A stretch of 64,000 bases of DNA from Actinomadura violacea. Lineage in GTDB: Bacteria > Actinomycetota > Actinomycetes > Streptosporangiales > Streptosporangiaceae. Position 1 is the first letter of the stretch, and each line of letters opens with the position of its first letter. The notes under the pieces were generated by a model. It saw nothing but the letters and a program-made list of their open reading frames with translations. It searched no databases and was not told where the DNA came from. Positions 53,697-64,000 of this stretch are shown piece after piece. A program made the position numbers and the translations under genes. The DNA lies in assembly GCF_017573465.1 (NCBI RefSeq), contig NZ_JAGEPF010000006.1, positions 186,001-250,000 of the forward strand, written 5' to 3'.

Positions 53697-54893
53697 TCAG
53701 CTGCAGTTGCCCTGGGTGGGCTGGCCGGCGATGCGGGCGGCCAGCCAGTCCATCGCCGGGGCGGCTCCGGCGATGGCCCCGGCGGCGTGGTTGGCCAGCG
53801 GGATGGGCTGCCACTGGACGACGTTGCCGCGCGAGCACCAGTCCGCGCGCAACTGCTCGCCGAGGTCATAGGAGACGACCTCGTCGGAGGTGCCGTGGTA
53901 GAGGTACACCGGGTAGCCGGGGGCGCGGGTGCCGAGCTTGTCGGCGGCCAGGCGCTTCTGCCAGTCGGGTGATTCGATCGGATTGCGGACGGTCAGCTCG
54001 TCGAGGGACTTGCCGATGGTGGCGAGGGCGTCGTCGAGGATGCAGCCGCCGCGCAGCTTGGTGACGACGTCGCGGCCTTCGTCGGTGAGATAGCCGTCCA
54101 GGTTCAGTTCGGGGTAGGCGGCGTCGTGGCCGATGGCCACCAGGAGTTCCAGGCCGACGATTCCTCCGCCTGCGTTGGCGCTCTTCAGTTCGTCGGCGGG
54201 GACGCCGCCGCTGGCGATTCCCTTGATGTGCAGGTCGGGTGCGTAGGTGCGGGCGAGTTCGGCGGCCCATGCGCTGGCGTGGCCGCCCTGGGAGTAGCCC
54301 ATGACACCGACCGGCGAGTCCGCCGTGACCCCTGCCTGCTGCGCCTGCGGGAGGCGCTGGGCGGCGCGGGCGGCGTCCAGGACGGCGGTGCCTTCGGGGC
54401 GTCCGACGAGGTAGGTGTGGTCGCCGGGGGTGCCGAGGCCCTGGTAGTCGGTGACGGCGACGGCCCAGCCGCGCTGGAGGGCGGCGTTGATCTCGCCGGC
54501 CTCGATGCTGGTGCCCTTGGGGAAGTTGGCCGAGGGGGCGCACTGGTCGGCCAGACCGACGGTGCCGACGGCGTAGGTGAGCAGCGGGCGGGTGCCGGTG
54601 CGGCCGTCGTCCGGGACGATGACGGTGCCGGAGACCTGGTCGGGGTTCCCGTTGACGTCGGTGGACCGGTAGAGGATCTTCCACGCGCGGGTGAGCGTCG
54701 GGAGCCCGGGCACCACGCGGAACAACGACGGCTCTGCGCTGATCAGGTCTCCCGGCCGGGCGCCGGCGGGCGCGGTCTGCGCGGCGGCGGCAGTGCCGGG
54801 AACGGCGAGGCAGGGTGCGGCCGCCGCCATGACGGCGACGGCGGCCAGTGCCAGCCGCCTCCAGGGCGTGGGCTTGTTGCCCGAGTGTTGCAT
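53697..54893 (-). CDS. Secreted lipase (LIP family, alpha/beta hydrolase)
   Basis: 398 aa. Signal peptide to about residue 37 (LALAAVAVMAAAAPCLAVPG, then TAAAA). Secretory lipase domain: SRTWKILYRSTD-like strand WKILYRSTDVNGNPDQVSGT, nucleophile elbow GYSQGG with Ser at about 201, the SGGVPADE segment after it, YPVYLYHGTSDEVVSYD (acid Asp) and LANHAAGAI (His). It releases fatty acids or hydroxy acids outside the cell. The palindrome ACTTGAATTTGGCCTCAAGT lies upstream at 55035-55054 and is nearly the same as that before the acyl-CoA operon, so both may share a regulator. Confidence 0.9.
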   Translation of the reverse strand: MQHSGNKPTPWRRLALAAVAVMAAAAPCLAVPGTAAAAQTAPAGARPGDLISAEPSLFRVVPGLPTLTRAWKILYRSTDVNGNPDQVSGTVIVPDDGRTGTRPLLTYAVGTVGLADQCAPSANFPKGTSIEAGEINAALQRGWAVAVTDYQGLGTPGDHTYLVGRPEGTAVLDAARAAQRLPQAQQAGVTADSPVGVMGYSQGGHASAWAAELARTYAPDLHIKGIASGGVPADELKSANAGGGIVGLELLVAIGHDAAYPELNLDGYLTDEGRDVVTKLRGGCILDDALATIGKSLDELTVRNPIESPDWQKRLAADKLGTRAPGYPVYLYHGTSDEVVSYDLGEQLRADWCSRGNVVQWQPIPLANHAAGAIAGAAPAMDWLAARIAGQPTQGNCS

Positions 54894-55034
54894 GACTCTC
54901 CTTGGGGTGGTCGGCCCGCGCAGCCGTGGCGGACGTGCGTCGGCTCGGGCTTTGCGTGGGTGGTGGGCCGTGCGGCGACCCGGTGCGGTGCGCCGGGTGC
55001 CGTAATGAAACCGCCGTGCGCGCCGCATCACAAT

Positions 55035-55054
55035 ACTTGAATTTGGCCTCAAGT
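55035..55054. promoter_or_regulatory. TetR-type operator, lipase promoter
   Basis: ACTTGAATTTGGCCTCAAGT: ACTTGAA-N6-CTCAAGT, between the lipase start (54893, minus) and the TetR start (55173, plus). It is one base short of the perfect copy at 56530-56549. Confidence 0.65.
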
Positions 55055-55172
55055 ACATGTATCGCGGGCGCGCCGGGTCATGGCCCCGTGCACTTCGTCG
55101 TCAGGGCGAACTTGCCTCATTCATGACGGATCGGATGCTGATTGCTAGGGCTCGGCTTCATAGCGTGAGAAC

Positions 55173-55745
55173 ATGGAGCAATCGGCCGTCATGGACGTCG
55201 CCTCGCGCATGTTCGCCGAACTCGGCTATGACGGCACGTCGTTGCAGCTCATCGCGGACGCTCTGGGAGTCGGCGTCGACGAGGTGGTGGCGTCCGGCGG
55301 AGGCAAGCGTGAGCTGTACCTGGCGGCGATGCGGCGTGCCTTCGAGGAAGAGCAGGCGGTGATGCGGGCCGCGATGGACGACTGTCCTCCCGGCAGGGAG
55401 TGCCTGCACCACCTGACCGACGTGTACCTGGACTTCCAGCTCGAGCACCCCATCGGACACGCGCTGTGGATGCACCGGTGGGTGTTGGACGCCATCGACA
55501 TCGGTGGCCTGGAGGACGAGTTCAGCCGCCCCCAGCTCCGGGCGGTCGCCCGGAAGGTCAAGGACCAGGTGCCGACCGACGTGAACGTCTCCTACCTGCT
55601 GGGGACGCTGATCTGGTGCGTCCACGGCTTCCTCGGGTCGGGCGTGATGGCGCGCGGGCAAGGAGTGCGCCGGGCCGACGACCCGACCGCCCGCCAGGAG
55701 TTCCGTGCCCACCTGCACCAGCTGATCGACAAGATGCTCGACTGA
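55173..55745 (+). CDS. TetR-family transcriptional regulator
   Basis: 190 aa. The HTH is at about residues 1-50 (AVMDVASRMFAELGYDGTSLQLIADALGVGVDEVVASGGGKRELYLAAM); the N-terminal helix is short, so the chain has almost no tail before the HTH. The C-terminal domain includes YLDFQLEHPIGHALWMHRWV and LLGTLIWCVHGFLGSGV. It is divergent from the lipase gene, and could bind the palindrome at 55035, but the second TetR gene at 55793 has an identical site and is an equal candidate. Confidence 0.88.
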   Translation: MEQSAVMDVASRMFAELGYDGTSLQLIADALGVGVDEVVASGGGKRELYLAAMRRAFEEEQAVMRAAMDDCPPGRECLHHLTDVYLDFQLEHPIGHALWMHRWVLDAIDIGGLEDEFSRPQLRAVARKVKDQVPTDVNVSYLLGTLIWCVHGFLGSGVMARGQGVRRADDPTARQEFRAHLHQLIDKMLD

Positions 55746-55792: not shown

Positions 55793-56452
55793 TCAGGGAG
55801 AGGGCTTCAGGCGCAGCGCGTTGGCCCAGAGCTTGTTGAGGGTGTCGACGAGGTCGTCGAAGGTGATGGGCAGTTCGGCGACGAAGACCATGTAGGCCAT
55901 GCGGCTGACCATGGCCGACAGCGCGTAGGCGGTGACGAGGGGGGCGATTTCCGGGTCGGCCTGCCCGCGCTCCTGGAGTTCCCGGATCATCCTGGCGTTG
56001 CGTTCGGCGAAGGCGGTGCCGCGTTCGAGGCGGAGCCGGTGGAAGTTCTCGTTGATCTGGGCGACCTGCTCGAACAGGGCCATGAGGCGGGCGTTGCGCC
56101 GGTACATCTCCAGGTAGTCGCGGTTGGCGGCCTCGATGACCTCGCGCGGGTCGCTGACGCCGGTGCGTTCGCGCAGGTGCGGGTGGAGCATCTCCTCCTG
56201 CACCAGCTCGACCAGGGCGGCGAAGATCTCTTCCTTGTCGTTGAAGTAGGTGTAGAAGGACCCGGACGCGGCGCCGGCGGCCTTGGAGATGTCGACGATG
56301 CGGGCGTCGAGGTAGCCGTCGCGCTCGAACACCTCGCGGGCGCCCTGGATCAGCGCGTTGCGGGTGCGGACGCCGCGCTTGCTGCGCGGGGTGATGCGGG
56401 CCTGCCGCTCACCGCCGGCCGTCTGCCCGGGAGCCGTCTCTTCGGGAACCAC
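55793..56452 (-). CDS. TetR-family transcriptional regulator of the acyl-CoA operon
   Basis: 219 aa. The HTH is at about residues 28-75 (TRNALIQGAREVFERDGYLDARIVDISKAAGAASGSFYTYFNDKEEIFAAL). A helical ligand domain follows (LEMYRRNARLMALFEQVAQINENFHRLRLERG), FadR/KstR2-like in layout. It is divergent from the acyl-CoA dehydrogenase gene with a perfect palindrome between, so it probably represses that operon and is released by an acyl-CoA (inference). Confidence 0.9.
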   Translation of the reverse strand: MVPEETAPGQTAGGERQARITPRSKRGVRTRNALIQGAREVFERDGYLDARIVDISKAAGAASGSFYTYFNDKEEIFAALVELVQEEMLHPHLRERTGVSDPREVIEAANRDYLEMYRRNARLMALFEQVAQINENFHRLRLERGTAFAERNARMIRELQERGQADPEIAPLVTAYALSAMVSRMAYMVFVAELPITFDDLVDTLNKLWANALRLKPSP

Positions 56453-56529: not shown

Positions 56530-56549
56530 ACTTGAAGGCGGATTCAAGT
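56530..56549. promoter_or_regulatory. Perfect TetR-type operator, acyl-CoA operon promoter
   Basis: ACTTGAAGGCGGATTCAAGT: 7-bp arms ACTTGAA/TTCAAGT with a 6-base spacer; an extra half-site CACTTGAA precedes it at 56523. It lies between the TetR gene (56452, minus) and the acyl-CoA dehydrogenase start (56584). Confidence 0.75.
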
Positions 56550-56583
56550 AAAGATGACGGCACGCCTTCCGAGGGGAGCCTTC

Positions 56584-57897
56584 GTGGACCTTTTCACCGT
56601 CTCCGACCGGGTGCGCCGCTACCGCGACGACCTGCTGGAGTTCATGGACGAGCACGTGTACCCGGCCGAAGCGGTGTACGAGCGGCAGATGAGCGAGTCC
56701 GGCGACCCGCACCACCAGCCGCGGATCGTCGAGGAGTTGAAGGCCGAGGCCCGCCGGCGCGGCCTGTGGAACCTGTTCCATCCGCATCCGGAGTGGGGTC
56801 CGGGGCTGACGAACCTGGAGTATGCGCCGCTGGCCGAGATCATGGGCCGCAGCGCCCACCTCGCGCCGGAGGCCACCAACTGCGCCGCCCCCGACACCGG
56901 GAACATGGAGGTGCTCACGCTGTTCGGCAGCGACGAGCACAAGCGCAAGTACCTGCGCCCGCTGCTGGACGGGGCGATCCGGTCGGCGTTCGCGATGACC
57001 GAGCCCGGTGTCGCCAGCTCCGACGCCACCAACATCGAGCTGCGCATGGAACGCGACGGCGACCACTACGTCCTCAACGGCCGCAAATGGTTCGCCTCCA
57101 ACGCGATGCACAAGAACTGCCGGGTACTGATCGTCATGGGCAAGACGGATCCGGACGCCGCGCCGCACCGGCAGCAGTCGATGATGGTCGTGCCCATCGA
57201 CGCCCCCGGCGTCACGATCGTCCGCAGCCTCCCGGTGTTCGGGTACATGGACCGGGAGGGCCACGCCGAGATCCTCTTCGAGGACGTGCGCGTGCCGGTG
57301 AGCGATGTCCTCAAGGGTGAGGGCGAGGGCTTCGCGATCAGCCAGGCGCGGCTCGGCCCCGGCCGGATCCACCACTGCATGCGCGCCATCGGCGTCGCCG
57401 AACGGGCGCTGGATCTGATGTGCCGCCGGGCGGACGAGCGGGTCGTGTTCGGGCACCGGCTGAGCGACAGCGCCAACATCCGCGACTGGATCGCCGAGGC
57501 CAGGATCGAGATCGAGCGGACCCGGCTGCTCACCTTGAAGGCCGCCTGGATGATGGACACCGTCGGCAACAAGGCGGCGCGGGTGGAGATCGCCGCGATC
57601 AAGGTCGCCGCGCCGGGCATGGCGCTGAAGATCGTCGACCGTGCCATCCAGGTGCACGGCGGAGGCGGCGTCACCGACGACTTCCCGCTCGCCAACGCCT
57701 GGGCGCAGCTGCGCACCCTCCGCCTAGCCGACGGCCCCGACGAGGTCCACAAGCGCGCCATCGCGCTGCAGGAACTGCGCAAGCACCGCGACTCGGCCGA
57801 CGCGCCGTGGGTGCCGGAGGTCCCGGTCGACGGTCCGGGGCGTCCGGCCGTGGTGGGCGGGGGCCGCCGCGGTGAACGCAAGACAGCCGGTGCTTAG
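56584..57897 (+). CDS. Acyl-CoA dehydrogenase (ACAD10/11-like by context)
   Basis: 437 aa. FAD-dependent: N-terminal helical domain, [27 protein letters not shown], middle domain [18 protein letters not shown] and [14 protein letters not shown]-terminal [22 protein letters not shown] and [36 protein letters not shown]. The GRIHHCMR segment is characteristic of the ACAD10/11 branch as I recall it. GTG 56584 has GAGGGGAG 6-8 bases upstream; ATG 56554 sits 4 bases after the operator and lacks a site. It overlaps the APH-kinase gene by 26 bases. Confidence 0.9.
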
Positions 57898-58915
57898 CGT
57901 GGAGACGCTCGGGCCGGACGCTGGCGAGGTGACCGCCTGGATCGCCTCGCTGGGCATCGAGTTCCGGGGCGCGCTCCGCTTCGACCGGATCGGGCTGGGC
58001 CAGTCGAACCTGACCTTCGCGGTCGGCGACGAGCGGGGAGGGCGGTGGGTGCTGCGCCGTCCGCCGCTCGGCCGGCTGCTTCCCTCGGCGCACGATGTGG
58101 TCCGCGAGGCGCGGGTGCTGGCGGCGCTGGAGGGCACCGATGTCCCCGTCCCCCGGGTGCACGGCGTCCGGACCGACGGCGACGTCCCGATGGTGCTGAT
58201 GGAGTTCGTGGACGGGCTCGTCCTCGACCGGCTCGAGGTCGCCGGCGCGGTGTCCCCGCTGTGCCGCCGTGCGATCGGGCTGGCGATGGCCCGCACCCTG
58301 GCCGACGTGCACGCCGTGGATCTCGGCGCGACCGGGCTGGCCGATGCGACCGGTACCAGGCCGTACGCCGAGCGTCAGCTGCAGCGCTGGTTCTCCCAAT
58401 GGGAAAGATCGAAGACCCGCGAGCTACCCGAACTGGACAGGCTCACCGAGCGGCTGATGGACGCCGTTCCGCCGCAGCGGGAGGTCGCGTTGCTGCACGG
58501 CGACTTCCACCTGCGCAACGTGATCGCGTCCGGTGAGAACGGGAACATCGCCGCGGTCCTGGACTGGGAGCTGTGGACGCTCGGCGACCCGATGGCCGAC
58601 CTCGGAACCCTGCTCGCCTACTGGCCGGAACAGGGCGAGGCCGCCGTCGACGTCCTTTCGGTCACCGCGCTGCCGGGCTTCCCGCGCCGCGACGACCTCG
58701 TGCGGACCTACCTCGACCGCACCGGCAGGGACCCGTCGGCCCTCGGCTTCTGGCACGCGCTCGCGCTCTGGAAGCTGGCGATCATCGGCGAGGGCGTGCT
58801 GCGCCGCGCCATGGACGACCCGCGCAACCGCGCCGCCGCCGGCACCCCCACCGCGGCACAGATCGCAGCGCTGGTCGCCGCGGCCGAGCACACCGCGGCG
58901 GACGCGGGTGTCTGA
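57872..58915 (+). CDS. APH-family phosphotransferase (ACAD11 kinase domain/LvaA-like)
   Basis: 347 aa. Aminoglycoside-phosphotransferase/choline-kinase fold: [12 protein letters not shown] nucleotide loop, [10 protein letters not shown] lysine/arginine region, LMEFVDGLV, catalytic [10 protein letters not shown] (Asp at about 211), metal site [22 protein letters not shown]. Members of this group beside acyl-CoA dehydrogenases phosphorylate a hydroxyacyl-CoA rather than an antibiotic, as in P. putida LvaA and human ACAD11. GTG 57872 lies inside the dehydrogenase gene, so the two are coupled. Confidence 0.88.
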
Positions 58916-58987
58916 TCCGCCACGACGACCACCACACCGTCCGAAGCCCATCTGGCGCGGCATCGGCCATGAACAGAGGAGACACCC

Positions 58988-59746
58988 ATGAGCACCGAGC
59001 GCAGGACGGCGATCGTCACCGGTGCGGCACGCGGCATCGGCGCGGCGATCGCGCGGCGGCTGGCCGCCGATGGCATGGCCGTCGCCGTCCTCGACCTTGA
59101 GGAATCCGCCTGCGCGGACACCGCCGCGTCGATCACCGAGCAGGGCGGCACGGCGATGGCCGTGGCGGCGGACGTGGCCGACGAGGCGGCGGTGAACGCG
59201 GCCGTCGCCAAGGTGACCGCCGATCTCGCGGCCCCGACCGTTCTGGTCAACAACGCCGGCGTCACCCGCGACGACCTGCTGTTCAAGATGACCGCGCAGG
59301 ACTGGGACACGGTCATGAACGTGCATCTGCGGGGCTCGTTCCTGATGTCCAGGGCCGTCCAGGGACACATGGTCGAGGCCGGGTTCGGGCGGATCGTGAA
59401 CCTGTCGAGCACCTCCGCGCTCGGCAACCGGGGGCAGGCCAACTACGCCGCGGCCAAGGCGGGGCTGCAGGGCTTCACCAAGACGCTGGCGATCGAACTG
59501 GGCCGGTACGGCGTCACGGCCAACGCGATCGCACCGGGCTTCATCGAGACCGAGATGACCGCCGCCACCGCCCAGCGCATGGGCATGGACTTCGCCGAAA
59601 TGAAGAAGGCCGCGGCCGACCAGATCCCGGTCGGCCGCATCGGACTGCCCGACGACATCGCGCACGCCGCCGCGTTCCTGGTCGGTGAGCAGGCGGGGTT
59701 CGTCTCAGGCCAGGTCATCTACGTGGCCGGCGGCCCCACCAACTGA
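58988..59746 (+). CDS. SDR-family oxidoreductase (FabG-like)
   Basis: 252 aa classical short-chain dehydrogenase: cofactor motif TGAARGIGAAIA at residues 11-22, VNNAGVTRDDLLFKM, catalytic Ser in NLSSTSAL, Tyr153 and Lys157 in YAAAK, PGFIETEMT. A 3-hydroxyacyl-CoA or ketoreductase role fits the operon. The Asp in AVLDLEES suggests NAD(H) preference (family rule). GAGGAGACACCC precedes ATG 58988. Confidence 0.92.
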   Translation: MSTERRTAIVTGAARGIGAAIARRLAADGMAVAVLDLEESACADTAASITEQGGTAMAVAADVADEAAVNAAVAKVTADLAAPTVLVNNAGVTRDDLLFKMTAQDWDTVMNVHLRGSFLMSRAVQGHMVEAGFGRIVNLSSTSALGNRGQANYAAAKAGLQGFTKTLAIELGRYGVTANAIAPGFIETEMTAATAQRMGMDFAEMKKAAADQIPVGRIGLPDDIAHAAAFLVGEQAGFVSGQVIYVAGGPTN

Positions 59747-59796
59747 CCGGGCGCCCCTCCGAATCCTCCCTACTCGAACAGCACTAAGGAGCAGTC

Positions 59797-60996
59797 ATGA
59801 AACAGGCGGTCATCGTGTCCACGGCACGGACGCCGATCGGGCGGGCCTATCGCGGTGCGTTCAACGACACGCAGGCACAGCACCTGGCCGGCCACGCCAT
59901 CTCGCACGCGGTCGGCAGGGCGGGCCTGGACGGCGCCGAGATCGAGGACGTCGTGCTCGGCTGCGCGCTGCAGCAGGGTTCCTCGGGTAACAACGTGGCA
60001 CGTCAGGCCGCTCTTCGCGCCGGGCTGCCCGACACCGTCTCCGGGATGACGATCGACCGCCAGTGCTCGTCCGGGCTGATGGCGATCGCCACCGCCGCAA
60101 AGCAGATCACCCAGGACGGCATGGACGTCGTGGTCGCCGGCGGCGTCGAGTCGATCTCGCTCGTGCAGAACGACCACCTGAACCTGCACCGCGCGAGCGA
60201 CCCGTGGCTGGTGGCCAACGCGCCTTCCATCTACATGCCGATGCTGCACACCGCCGAGATCGTCGCCGAACGGTACGGCGTCGGCCGCGACCGGCAGGAC
60301 GAGTTCGCGCTCGCCTCGCAGCAGCGCACCGCGCGGGCGCAGGCGGACGGACGCTTCGACGCGGAGATCGTCCCGCTGACGACCGTGAAGAAGGTGGCCG
60401 ACCGCGCGACCGGCGAGACCACCGAGGAGGAGGTCACGCTGACCCGCGACGAGGGGAACCGTCCCTCGACCACCTTGGAGACCCTCGCCGGGTTGCGGGC
60501 CGTCCTGCCCGACGGGCAGGTCACCGCGCAGTCGACGGTGACCGCGGGCAACGCCTCGCAGTTGTCGGACGGGGCGTCGGCCTGCGTGCTGATGGAAGCG
60601 GGCGAGGCCGAGCGCCGCGGGCTCGAACCCCTCGGCGCCTACCGGGGGATCGCGGTCGCCGGATGCGCACCAGACGAGATGGGCGTCGGCCCGGTGCTCG
60701 CCGTGCCGAAGCTCCTCAAGCAGCACGGACTGACCGTCGACGACATCGACCTGTGGGAGCTGAACGAGGCGTTCGCCTCCCAGGCGGTGTACTGCCGCGA
60801 CGAACTGCACATCGACCCGGACCGCTTCAACGTCAACGGCGGCGGCATCTCCATCGGCCACCCCTACGGCATGACGGGTTCACGGCTGGTCGGGCATGCG
60901 CTGATCGAGGGCCGGCGGCGCGGCGCCCGGCACGTGGTGATCACCATGTGCGTCGGCGGCGGCATGGGCGCGGCCGGGCTCTTCGACGTCACCTGA
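59797..60996 (+). CDS. Acetyl-CoA acyltransferase (thiolase)
   Basis: 399 aa. Active-site Cys90 in QCSSG, His355 in [17 protein letters not shown] and Cys385 in MCVGGGMG, the complete thiolase triad. Last step of beta-oxidation, cleaving 3-ketoacyl-CoA to acetyl-CoA or propionyl-CoA and a shorter acyl-CoA. AAGGAGCAGTC precedes ATG 59797. Located between the SDR and HAD genes in the acyl-CoA operon. Confidence 0.95.
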
Positions 60997-61012
60997 GCGG
61001 AGAGGAGGACAC

Positions 61013-61741
61013 GTGAACCCCGGCACGGCCCCCGGCGCGGCCGTCCCCCCGCAGGCGGTGCTCATCGACTTCGGGGGCGTGCTGACCAGCGGCGTCTTCG
61101 ACGCCTTCCGCGCCGTCTCGCACCGGATCAGCGGCGACCCGCGCCTCATCGAACGGATCCTCCGCGAAGACGGGGCCTCCGGGCGGCTGCTGGCCGAGCA
61201 CGAATGCGGACGCCTCGGCCAAGCCGGGTTCGAGGAAGGCTTCGCCGAACGGCTCCGCGCCCATGGCGTGGCCACGGTGCCCGCCGGCCTGGTCACACAG
61301 ATCCAGGACGGCCTGCGCCTCGACGAGGCGATGCTGACCGCCGTCGCCCGGCTGCGGTCCGACGGCGTCCCGGTCGCGATCGTCTCCAACGCCTTCGGCG
61401 ACGACTGTTACCAGGGCGTCGACCTGTACGCCATCGCTGACGCCGTCGTCATCTCCAGCGACGTCGGCGTCCGCAAGCCGTCCCAGAGCATCTACCGGAT
61501 CGCCTGCGAACGGCTCGGCGCCGATCCGGCCGCCTGCGTGATGATCGACGACCTCCGCCACAACCTCGACGGTGCCGAACGCCTCGGCATCCGCGGCCTG
61601 CATCACCTCAACGGCACCGAGACCGTCCACCGCCTCGCCGAAATCTTCGGCCTCGACCTGGGACCGGACACCGGCGGCGAGCGCCCGCCCGCCGGAACCG
61701 ACCGGGATTCCCCGATGCGATACGACAGGAAGAGACGATGA
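61013..61741 (+). CDS. HAD-family hydrolase (ACAD10 HAD-domain-like)
   Basis: 242 aa. The HAD fold starts AVLIDFGGVLTSGVFDAFR with nucleophile Asp19; the +2 residue is Gly, as in HAD domains of epoxide hydrolase and ACAD10. Motif II VAIVSNAFGDD, motif III VGVRKPSQSIYRIA (Lys), motif IV CVMIDDLRHNLDGAERLG. Gly at the +2 site suggests weak or altered phosphatase activity. GTG 61013 follows GAGAGGAGGAC. It overlaps the hydratase start by 4 bases. Confidence 0.88.
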   Translation: MNPGTAPGAAVPPQAVLIDFGGVLTSGVFDAFRAVSHRISGDPRLIERILREDGASGRLLAEHECGRLGQAGFEEGFAERLRAHGVATVPAGLVTQIQDGLRLDEAMLTAVARLRSDGVPVAIVSNAFGDDCYQGVDLYAIADAVVISSDVGVRKPSQSIYRIACERLGADPAACVMIDDLRHNLDGAERLGIRGLHHLNGTETVHRLAEIFGLDLGPDTGGERPPAGTDRDSPMRYDRKRR

Positions 61742-62532
61742 CCCAGAACGAAGAGACCGTCCTCGCGGAGCGGCGCGGTCCCGTGCTACTCCTCACGCTG
61801 AACCGGCCCGAGCGCCTCAACGCCTGGAACGACGAACTGGAGTGGCGCTACTTCGCCCTCCTCGACGAGGCGGAAGCCGACCCGGACGTACGAGCGATCG
61901 TCGTGACCGGCGCGGGAAAGGGCTTCTGTGGCGGCGCGGACCTCGGCGTCCTCCAGGAGGTCAGCAACGCCGACGAGGTGGGGCCGGTCGAACGGGCCCG
62001 CCCGCGCACGTTCCCGCTGACCGTCCGCAAGCCGATGATCGCGGCGATCAACGGCGCCGCCGCGGGGCTCGGCCTGGTCGAGGCGCTCTACTGCGACATC
62101 CGGTTCAGCGTTCCGGACGCCAAGCTCACCACCGCGTTCGCCCGGCGCGGCCTGATCGCCGAATACGGGATCGCCTGGCTGCTCCCGCGCCTCATCGGCA
62201 CCAGCCGCGCCCTCGACATGCTCATGTCGGGCCGCATCGTGAAGGGCGAGGAGGCCTGGGCGTTCGGGCTGGTCGACAAGGTCGTCGAACCCGATGCCCT
62301 GCTGGACGCCGCCGTCGGCTACGCCACCGAACTGGCCACCCTCTGCTCGCCCACCTCTATGAGCGTCATCAAGCAGCAGGTCATGCGCGCTCTGGACAGC
62401 GACTTCACCACCGCCGTCACCGAAGCCGACGACCTGATGGTCGCCTCCTTCAACCACCCGGACGCCGCCGAAGGCGTCACCAGCTACCTGGAGCGCCGGC
62501 CGCCCGCGTTCCGTCCCCTCGGCGCCCGATGA
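61738..62532 (+). CDS. Enoyl-CoA hydratase/isomerase
   Basis: 264 aa crotonase fold. Oxyanion-hole segments GAGKGFCGGADLGVL and NGAAAGLGLVEALYCDIRF; the typical catalytic region RRGLIAEYGIAWLLPRLIG has Glu in AEYG; GRIVKGEEAWAFGLVDKVV. It hydrates 2-enoyl-CoA or shifts its double bond in the operon's beta-oxidation. ATG 61738 overlaps the HAD stop (ATGA). Confidence 0.93.
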   Translation: MTQNEETVLAERRGPVLLLTLNRPERLNAWNDELEWRYFALLDEAEADPDVRAIVVTGAGKGFCGGADLGVLQEVSNADEVGPVERARPRTFPLTVRKPMIAAINGAAAGLGLVEALYCDIRFSVPDAKLTTAFARRGLIAEYGIAWLLPRLIGTSRALDMLMSGRIVKGEEAWAFGLVDKVVEPDALLDAAVGYATELATLCSPTSMSVIKQQVMRALDSDFTTAVTEADDLMVASFNHPDAAEGVTSYLERRPPAFRPLGAR

Positions 62533-62549
62533 GGCAATGCGGAACCAGG

Positions 62550-64000
62550 ATGAACAACACCGCTGAAGCACTCTGGCGCCACGCCCAGGCCACACCCGGC
62601 AGCGTCGCGCTCCGCGACGACGCGGGCGTCTCCTGGACCTACCGAACTCTGCACGACAGGGTCGCCGCCCTTGCTGCGAGTTTGCGCGAAGCAGGCGTCA
62701 GGCCAGGAGACCGCGTCCTGTTGGTCGCCCCCGCCGTGCCCGAGTTCGCCGTCGCCTATTACGGCATCCACGCCGCCGGTGCGATCGCCGTTACAGCCAA
62801 CACCATGTCCACGAGCCATGAACTGCACTACATCGGCCAGGACGCCGGCGTGGCGCTCGTGCTCGGCTGGAACCGGATCGCGCCCGGTCCCGCCGAGACG
62901 GCCACCCGGTTGGACGTCCCGTACTGGCCGATCGCCACCGGCATGCCCGACCTCATAGCCGGAAGCGATCCGGGCCGGCCCCATCCCACCGGAGCCGACG
63001 ACACGGCGGTGATCCTCTACACGTCCGGGACCACCGGACGGCCGAAAGGCGCCCAGCTCACCCACGGCAACCTCGACAGCTGCGCCGCGATGATCCGGCA
63101 AGCGCACGAGGTCACCGCCGCCGACCGCTGCCTCTCGGCCCTGCCGCTGTTCCACGTCTACGGGCAGGCGTGCGTGATGAACACCGTCATCCAGGCCGGC
63201 GCAGGTCTCTCCTTGCTGCCGCGCTTCACCCCCGAGGGCATGCTGGCACTCCTGCACCGCGACGAACCGACCTTCATGGCCGGCGTCCCCACCATGTGGA
63301 ACGCCCTCCTGCATGCGGCCGCTGGTCAGCGACCCGCCGACTTCACCGGACTGCGGCACGCCGCGTCAGGCGGCGCGTCCCTGCCCGGCGAGGTCATGTA
63401 CGCCTTCCAGGAGCACTTCGGCTGCGCCGTCCTCGAGGGCTACGGGCTGACCGAGACGACCGGAGCCGGCACCGCCCACATCACCGGCCGTCCCCGCAGA
63501 CCCGGTACCGTCGGCGCTGCCCTGCCCGGCTGCGAGATCACCGTCCGCGACGACAACGACGCCGAACTTCCCAACGGCGAGGTCGGCGAGATCCACATCA
63601 GCGGCCCCGTCGTCATGAAGGGCTACTGGAACCGCCCGGACGCCACCGCCGAGGTGCTCCGCGACGGCCGGCTGCGCACCGGCGACCTCGGCGCCAAGGA
63701 CGCCGACGGCGACCTCCGCATCGTCGGCCGCAAGAAGGAACTGGTCATCCGCGGCGGGTACAACGTCTACCCCACCGAGGTCGAGGAAGTGCTCTACCGG
63801 CACCCCGACATCGTCGAGGCCGCCGTCGTCGGCGTCCCTGACGACCACTACGGGGAAGAGGTCGCCGCGGCCATCGCGGTGCGGGACGGCGCCGAACTCA
63901 CCGGCGACGAGCTGCGCCGCTGGGCCAAGCAGCGGCTCTCCGCCTACAAGGTCCCGCACCTGATCGCCATCGTCGACGAGCTCCCCAAGGGCCCCACCGG
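62550..64000 (+). CDS. Acyl-CoA ligase (ANL superfamily), 3' end beyond window
   Basis: Open from ATG 62550 to the window end (483 codons seen), no stop. Motifs: P-loop YTSGTTGRPKG at about 157-167; A4/A5-type EGYGLTETTGAG; RTGDLGAKDADGDLRIVGRKKELVIRGGYNVYPTEVEEVLY at about 375-410; DELPKGPTG at the edge, just before the catalytic Lys expected in the next residues. It activates a carboxylic acid to acyl-CoA through an acyl-AMP. It follows the hydratase by 17 bases and belongs to the same operon; the weak GGAACCAGG precedes the start. Confidence 0.92.
   Translation, partial: MNNTAEALWRHAQATPGSVALRDDAGVSWTYRTLHDRVAALAASLREAGVRPGDRVLLVAPAVPEFAVAYYGIHAAGAIAVTANTMSTSHELHYIGQDAGVALVLGWNRIAPGPAETATRLDVPYWPIATGMPDLIAGSDPGRPHPTGADDTAVILYTSGTTGRPKGAQLTHGNLDSCAAMIRQAHEVTAADRCLSALPLFHVYGQACVMNTVIQAGAGLSLLPRFTPEGMLALLHRDEPTFMAGVPTMWNALLHAAAGQRPADFTGLRHAASGGASLPGEVMYAFQEHFGCAVLEGYGLTETTGAGTAHITGRPRRPGTVGAALPGCEITVRDDNDAELPNGEVGEIHISGPVVMKGYWNRPDATAEVLRDGRLRTGDLGAKDADGDLRIVGRKKELVIRGGYNVYPTEVEEVLYRHPDIVEAAVVGVPDDHYGEEVAAAIAVRDGAELTGDELRRWAKQRLSAYKVPHLIAIVDELPKGPT

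Follow-up and report, generated by a model that had tools for sequence, protein, structure and literature searches.

We have identified, in a 64,000-nt stretch of the 11.17 Mb genome of Actinomadura violacea (NZ_JAGEPF010000006.1; G000:C66:186001-250000 in our numbering; "the window" hereafter), an operon of seven plus-strand genes that probably serves the catabolism of 4-hydroxy fatty acids, or of gamma-lactones opened to them. In this reading, a free-standing HAD protein would restrain a kinase or limit its phospho-intermediate, and a secreted lipase encoded nearby would release the substrate. The seven genes proposed in an earlier note on this sequence are all there, from 56554 to ~64052 in the list of open reading frames (ORFs), and Pfam concurs for each of them (Table 1); the gaps between them measure 72, 50, 16 and 17 bases, and the remaining neighbours overlap. 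In mammals, ACAD10 is a fusion of a HAD domain, a kinase and an acyl-CoA dehydrogenase (ACAD), and ACAD11 a fusion of kinase and ACAD. The idea that the three modules of ACAD10 exist here as separate genes holds: they lie in separate frames, no polypeptide of the window uniting HAD, kinase and ACAD, and kinase and HAD are also separate in tandem loci elsewhere.

The ligase is predicted to make 4-hydroxyacyl-CoA, the 4-hydroxyl of which the kinase would phosphorylate; the ACAD10/11-type dehydrogenase, using FAD, would then eliminate the phosphate to yield a 2-enoyl-CoA, and the crotonase, the short-chain dehydrogenase/reductase (SDR) and the thiolase would complete one round of beta-oxidation. 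For the HAD protein, the likeliest role is to hold the kinase in check or to keep the phospho-intermediate from building up; the lipase, which has a similar operator site beside it, probably acts outside the cell to release the substrate. All these activities and the substrate are predicted from sequence; observed are the sequences, their diagnostic residues, the recurrent linkage of the genes and a shared palindrome.

The best solved-structure match of the dehydrogenase is ACAD11 (8v3u; E 4.8e-131), and the first ordinary ACAD follows at E 4.6e-43. For mouse ACAD11, the passages covered of PMC12440821 assign R626, R631, H634, R637 and D753 to the 4-phospho substrate, the acyl-CoA and the role of base, and describe them as exclusive to ACAD10, ACAD11 and LvaC. 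A 12-residue segment of the window dehydrogenase aligns with R626/R631/H634/R637, and the Asp of its ADGPDEVH with D753; the membership residues R626, H634 and R637 (HCMR) and the Asp base are thus all present. HCMR occurs in 55 of the 62 ACADs listed, the seven without it being the distant ones. In a tree of 65 rows, with few ordinary or distant ACADs as outgroups and with LvaC and ACAD10 left out, the dehydrogenase and ACAD11 share a 57-row branch (SH-aLRT 98-99), apart from those outgroups. By placement as well as by residues, the dehydrogenase sides with ACAD11 and not with the ordinary ACADs, as had been proposed. This tree and that of the kinase were quick ones with SH-aLRT support only, and the long-branch warnings include ACAD11, 3dxp, 9o56 and 4hr3.

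Amongst solved structures, the kinase is closest to 9o56 (7.5e-48), 3dxp (3.4e-44) and ACAD11 (3.2e-38), in a top group extending to E 4.2e-37, far ahead of the macrolide and hygromycin kinases of the PDB, which match no better than E 0.0015. Of 58 aligned rows, 57 (all but the outgroup fragment 3ats) conserve the alpha-C Arg-Glu, the Y-x-x-R-Q Arg and the catalytic Asp and Asn; R86, described in the literature for ACAD10/11-LvaA kinases, was matched by description only, not by chain numbering. The window proteins therefore resemble ACAD11 in the active-site residues of both kinase and dehydrogenase. In the kinase tree, which includes ACAD11 (LvaA and ACAD10 were left out), the window kinase and those of Actinomadura and Catenulispora fall into one branch of 40 rows (support 100); the kinases of kinase-HAD tandems form a separate 10-row branch (99), and ACAD11 and 3dxp another (99). 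For the kinase, too, the sequence test set in the earlier note speaks for its interpretation: the strength of the matches sets the kinase apart from drug kinases, but it belongs to an actinomycete branch of its own and is not the sister of ACAD11. We take its family to be one that PMC1821047 in 2007 called "less well described", the FadE subfamily of choline/aminoglycoside kinases; the passages covered of that account mention neither a HAD partner nor a pathway.

The HAD protein has TIGR02247 (epoxide hydrolase N-terminal domain-like) as its best NCBIfam model by E-value, at 81.1 bits against a cut-off of 125.4. In its AlphaFold model (mean pLDDT 86.6), the nearest fold is the N-terminal phosphatase domain of soluble epoxide hydrolase (sEH), followed by that of E. 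coli YihX, yet identity is only 20-24% amongst the structural matches listed. Of the D-x-D of motif I, which sEH carries in full, the window protein retains the first Asp only (D19-F-G21). As reported in the covered part of PMC11342911, the HAD domain of ACAD10 likewise has one Asp of D-x-D left and negligible activity as a phosphatase, and the kinase becomes more active when this last Asp is mutated. We infer from these sequence features that the window HAD is kin to the HAD domain of ACAD10 and its free-standing counterpart.

It could be argued that the pathway is as proposed but that the HAD protein is a true phosphatase, hydrolysing stalled 4-phosphoacyl-CoA or its free acid by way of metabolite repair, and no regulator. 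The nearest folds agree with this, and so do the nucleophile Asp, the motif II Ser, the Lys and the two late Asp of motif IV, which none of the 51 HADs aligned (nor any of 11 relatives aligned earlier) has lost. In the same sequences, however, the second motif-I Asp is consistently gone (48 Gly and 3 Tyr amongst the 51), the state in which the ACAD10 domain was reported to be nearly inactive (PMC11342911, in the part covered), and we consider a hydrolytic role rather unlikely.

Recurrent linkage argues for a HAD protein that works with the other two modules. The 51 aligned HADs were chosen partly for linkage, and their linked share is no rate; rates come from two surveys. The first covered the family (61 genomes, 60 genera; cut-offs E 1e-20 for HAD, 1e-90 for ACAD and 1e-40 for the kinase). 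HAD and ACAD10/11-type dehydrogenase genes lie at most 3 kb apart in 21 of these genomes, divergently in all 21, and the HADs concerned have no kinase match within 10 kb; kinase and ACAD are at most 3 kb apart in 17, and kinase and HAD within 10 kb solely in the window's operon. The second survey, across the class (118 genomes; E 1e-25 for HAD and 1e-110 for ACAD), found HAD in 58 genomes, ACAD in 66, both in 38, and the pair within 6 kb in 20, amongst them the window's own; by a rough arithmetic estimate, one or two copies per several Mb would meet within 6 kb by chance in less than 1% of genomes.

All three ACAD10-like modules are packed into ~3 kb at seven loci (L132, L133, L134, L137, L141, L142, L144), with a divergent ACAD and with kinase and HAD matches that share a few bases; three further loci carry the kinase-HAD tandem without an ACAD in the available stretch, and L147 and L148 are two more HAD-ACAD clusters. 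HAD-bearing stretches around close kinase relatives (score >330) are those of the window, Actinomadura sp. CNU-125 (L025), Catenulispora(les) L026-L030, and L070, L072, L080, L088, L089 and L097; the Actinomadura and the five Catenulispora(les) loci hold a related operon including the HAD gene. Over 31 linked pairs, HAD and ACAD distances correlate with r 0.87 (0 of 2000 permutations), host relatedness not being removed. The window genome has a second HAD-ACAD pair (contig C22), with members 36% and 62% identical to those in the operon, which group in other branches with the members of the family's pairs.

Several observations weigh against this partnership. The HAD protein falls short of the TIGR02247 cut-off, and its likeness to the HAD domain of ACAD10 was judged by the published description. 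YihX, a working phosphatase, likewise has D-x-G. This motif occurs in all 34 linked HADs aligned but also in 14 of the 17 unlinked ones; it therefore marks the subfamily and was rejected as a mark of linkage to ACAD or kinase. Amongst 72 class HADs, 21 lie within 6 kb of an ACAD match, 20 others were opened and 31 were left out of the kinase check; 17 of the 20 have neither kinase nor ACAD in their stretch (several are cut by contig ends), and some unlinked HADs occur in small genomes without an ACAD match at 1e-110. Only 13 of the 39 stretches around close kinase relatives contain the HAD gene (two are truncated by the end of the stretch), and none of those from Rhodococcus and Nocardia does. 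In 120 genomes of the Pseudomonadota (the phylum of a Pseudomonadales metagenome-assembled genome), none of nine HAD matches (8 genomes, 1e-15) is near an ACAD or kinase.

Bacterial kinase-ACAD fusions, hinted at by some long open frames, were rejected, all four loci opened (L117-L120) having separate frames. A clustering of all neighbour frames was not used, being swamped by the antisense frames of GC-rich DNA. At L136, L138, L139, L140 and L143, the 0.6-0.9 kb gap between HAD and ACAD holds a frame resembling a small membrane-anchored protein (family f14). On plasmid pTM2 of Tistrella mobilis (L107:6029-9212), an ACAD10/11-type dehydrogenase and an AtuA (acyclic terpene utilization) gene are arranged divergently, and the stretch has no match to an APH kinase. 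A Deinococcus plasmid (L108:8016-12694) clusters an ACAD10/11-type gene, an SDR, a kinase and a histidine-phosphatase-family gene, that is, another type of phosphatase by the kinase.

The window operon resembles the lva operon of Pseudomonas putida in its adjoining kinase, LvaC-type dehydrogenase, SDR and ligase. It differs by the addition of a thiolase, a crotonase, a HAD protein and a secreted lipase, by TetR regulators next to it (only neighbours were examined), and by the lack of room in its gaps for a gene of LvaB, with which LvaA works according to the covered part of PMC9399607; the lva operon has no counterpart of the ACAD10 HAD domain in the passages covered of PMC12440821. The label "Lva-like" thus fits the chemistry but not the make-up of the operon, which is no copy of the Pseudomonas one. 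From ACAD10 and ACAD11 it departs in having three separate genes inside a beta-oxidation operon, besides the kinase branch and the HAD score given above.

These likenesses bear on the proposal that the substrate is a levulinate-like 4-keto acid and the SDR a 4-ketoacyl-CoA reductase like LvaD, the whole being an actinomycete lva operon. Ligase, SDR, kinase and ACAD occur together as do LvaE, LvaD, LvaA and LvaC (PMC9399607, in the part covered), and 19 of the 39 kinase-relative stretches have an extra SDR between ACAD and kinase that could be a 4-keto reductase. In the window and eight others, however, ACAD and kinase adjoin directly, a shortened SDR frame lying behind the ligase in the window instead; its remaining SDR is FabG-like, LvaB would find no place, and the lipase points to lipid esters. 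We regard a 4-keto substrate as improbable. That the kinase confers resistance to an antibiotic or other small molecule beside ordinary beta-oxidation genes, as its Pfam APH domain and a weak match to an APH(3') model (44 bits, cut-off 205) might suggest, is highly implausible and was rejected, given the weak matches to drug kinases in the PDB and the phospho-substrate residues of the dehydrogenase.

Table 1. Features of the operon and its upstream neighbourhood (window positions).
Feature	Position	Strand	Remarks
Secreted lipase, PF03583 (E 2.7e-48)	53700..54896	-	signal-peptide-like N-terminus by look
Operator-like palindrome	55035..55054		ACTTGAATTTGGCCTCAAGT, one mismatch; divergent lipase/TetR2 intergenic region
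TetR-family regulator 2	55173..55745	+	TetR_N; 65% identical to regulator beside Actinomadura lipase
TetR-family regulator 1	55793..56452	-	TetR_N, EthR_C; divergent from operon
Operator-like palindrome	56530..56549		ACTTGAA-GGCGGA-TTCAAGT; upstream of dehydrogenase
ACAD10/11-LvaC-type acyl-CoA dehydrogenase	56584..57897 (ORF from 56554)	+	predicted 4-phosphoacyl-CoA phosphate-eliminating enzyme
APH-fold kinase, ACAD10/11 kinase family	57872..58915	+	predicted 4-hydroxyacyl-CoA kinase
SDR, FabG-like	58988..59746	+	predicted 3-hydroxyacyl-CoA dehydrogenase; Pfam
3-ketoacyl-CoA thiolase	59797..60996	+	Pfam
Free-standing HAD protein	61013..61741	+	nearest epoxide-hydrolase-N-terminal type; motif I D-x-G
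Crotonase family protein	61738..62532	+	predicted enoyl-CoA hydratase; 4-base overlap with HAD
AMP-forming (AMP-dependent) acyl-CoA ligase	62550..64000	+	runs past window end to ~64052; Pfam

GTG 56584, preceded by AGGGGAG (read by eye), may well be the true start of the dehydrogenase instead of ATG 56554, because many relatives align only from about residue 14 and because the ATG sits four bases past the palindrome. The 26-base overlap of dehydrogenase and kinase claimed in the earlier note depends on GTG 57872 as the kinase start; it is not established, since with the in-frame GTG at 57890 or 57899 it would be shorter or absent altogether. A scan for promoters and terminators returned nothing exceeding chance.

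The operon is probably under TetR control, and the palindrome is predicted to be bound by a protein. With at most one mismatch, ACTTGAA-N6-TTCAAGT occurs at three places in the whole genome, two of them at the operon locus; the reversed pattern has no occurrence, nor was there a match in any shuffle of the window. In Actinomadura sp. CNU-125, the palindrome is exact at each of the two corresponding sites, with another spacer at the dehydrogenase, and a lipase 67% identical over 364 residues to that of the window lies beside the same operon. The window lipase, which also matches PDB lipases, has its probable start at ATG 54896, inside ORF 53697-55058. In L026-L030, relatives of regulator 1 are divergent from the dehydrogenase. 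Five Catenulispora(les) loci carry a variant of the palindrome at the dehydrogenase, ACTTGAACTTGA...TCAA being retained at the promoter; part of this sequence may be promoter, not operator. A PF03583-type lipase was not found in the Catenulispora stretches, and a 31 kb stretch around lipase H61 of a Streptomyces megaplasmid gave no palindrome and no match to the operon except a weak one to the ligase. That similar operator sites accompany both the secreted lipase and the 4-hydroxyacyl pathway suggests that the organism grows on lipids or esters from which 4-hydroxy acids are released.

The third genomic palindrome is a perfect 20-base ACTTGAACCGCGGTTCAAGT between MerR-like and glyoxalase-like frames, recognised by eye (L172:1501-1520; G000:C32:100581); its neighbours suggest that it is probably a MerR site, and it was not counted as a regulon member. 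At L025:7341-7919, a MaoC-type dehydratase is divergent from the Actinomadura operon, with a common promoter region.

The operon-type kinase (E <1e-100) occurs in one of the 61 family genomes, the window's own, and in scattered other families, and kinase-ACAD pairs are present on Rhodococcus plasmids; the module is thus accessory and probably mobile. Behind the ligase, at L009:10049-10561 (~window 64049-64561), is the shortened SDR frame of 171 aa, which lacks the central part of the domain and is probably a gene in decay. A zinc alcohol dehydrogenase comes next; soon past the latter, integrase- and transposase-like frames were recognised by eye (L009:11870-14371).

We tentatively propose that the free-standing HAD protein of actinomycetes partners the kinase/dehydrogenase pair in trans, as the HAD domain of ACAD10 would in cis, by curbing the kinase or by removing the phospho-intermediate, that ACAD10 is a fusion of modules which already cooperated in bacteria, and that the lipase joins the set into one regulon here. 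Amongst the publications listed as matches (titles and abstract starts, most subscription papers lying outside the coverage), none ties a bacterial HAD protein to such a pair. The ACAD10 HAD domain combines near-zero phosphatase activity with a rise in kinase activity upon its mutation (PMC11342911, in the part covered); as separate bacterial genes, kinase, dehydrogenase and HAD can be made, mixed and deleted singly. The probable task of the operon described here is to degrade fatty acids whose hydroxyl group is awkwardly placed. This suggests a function for generically named genes in many actinomycetes, in which the third, poorly understood module of ACAD10 recurs beside the others.

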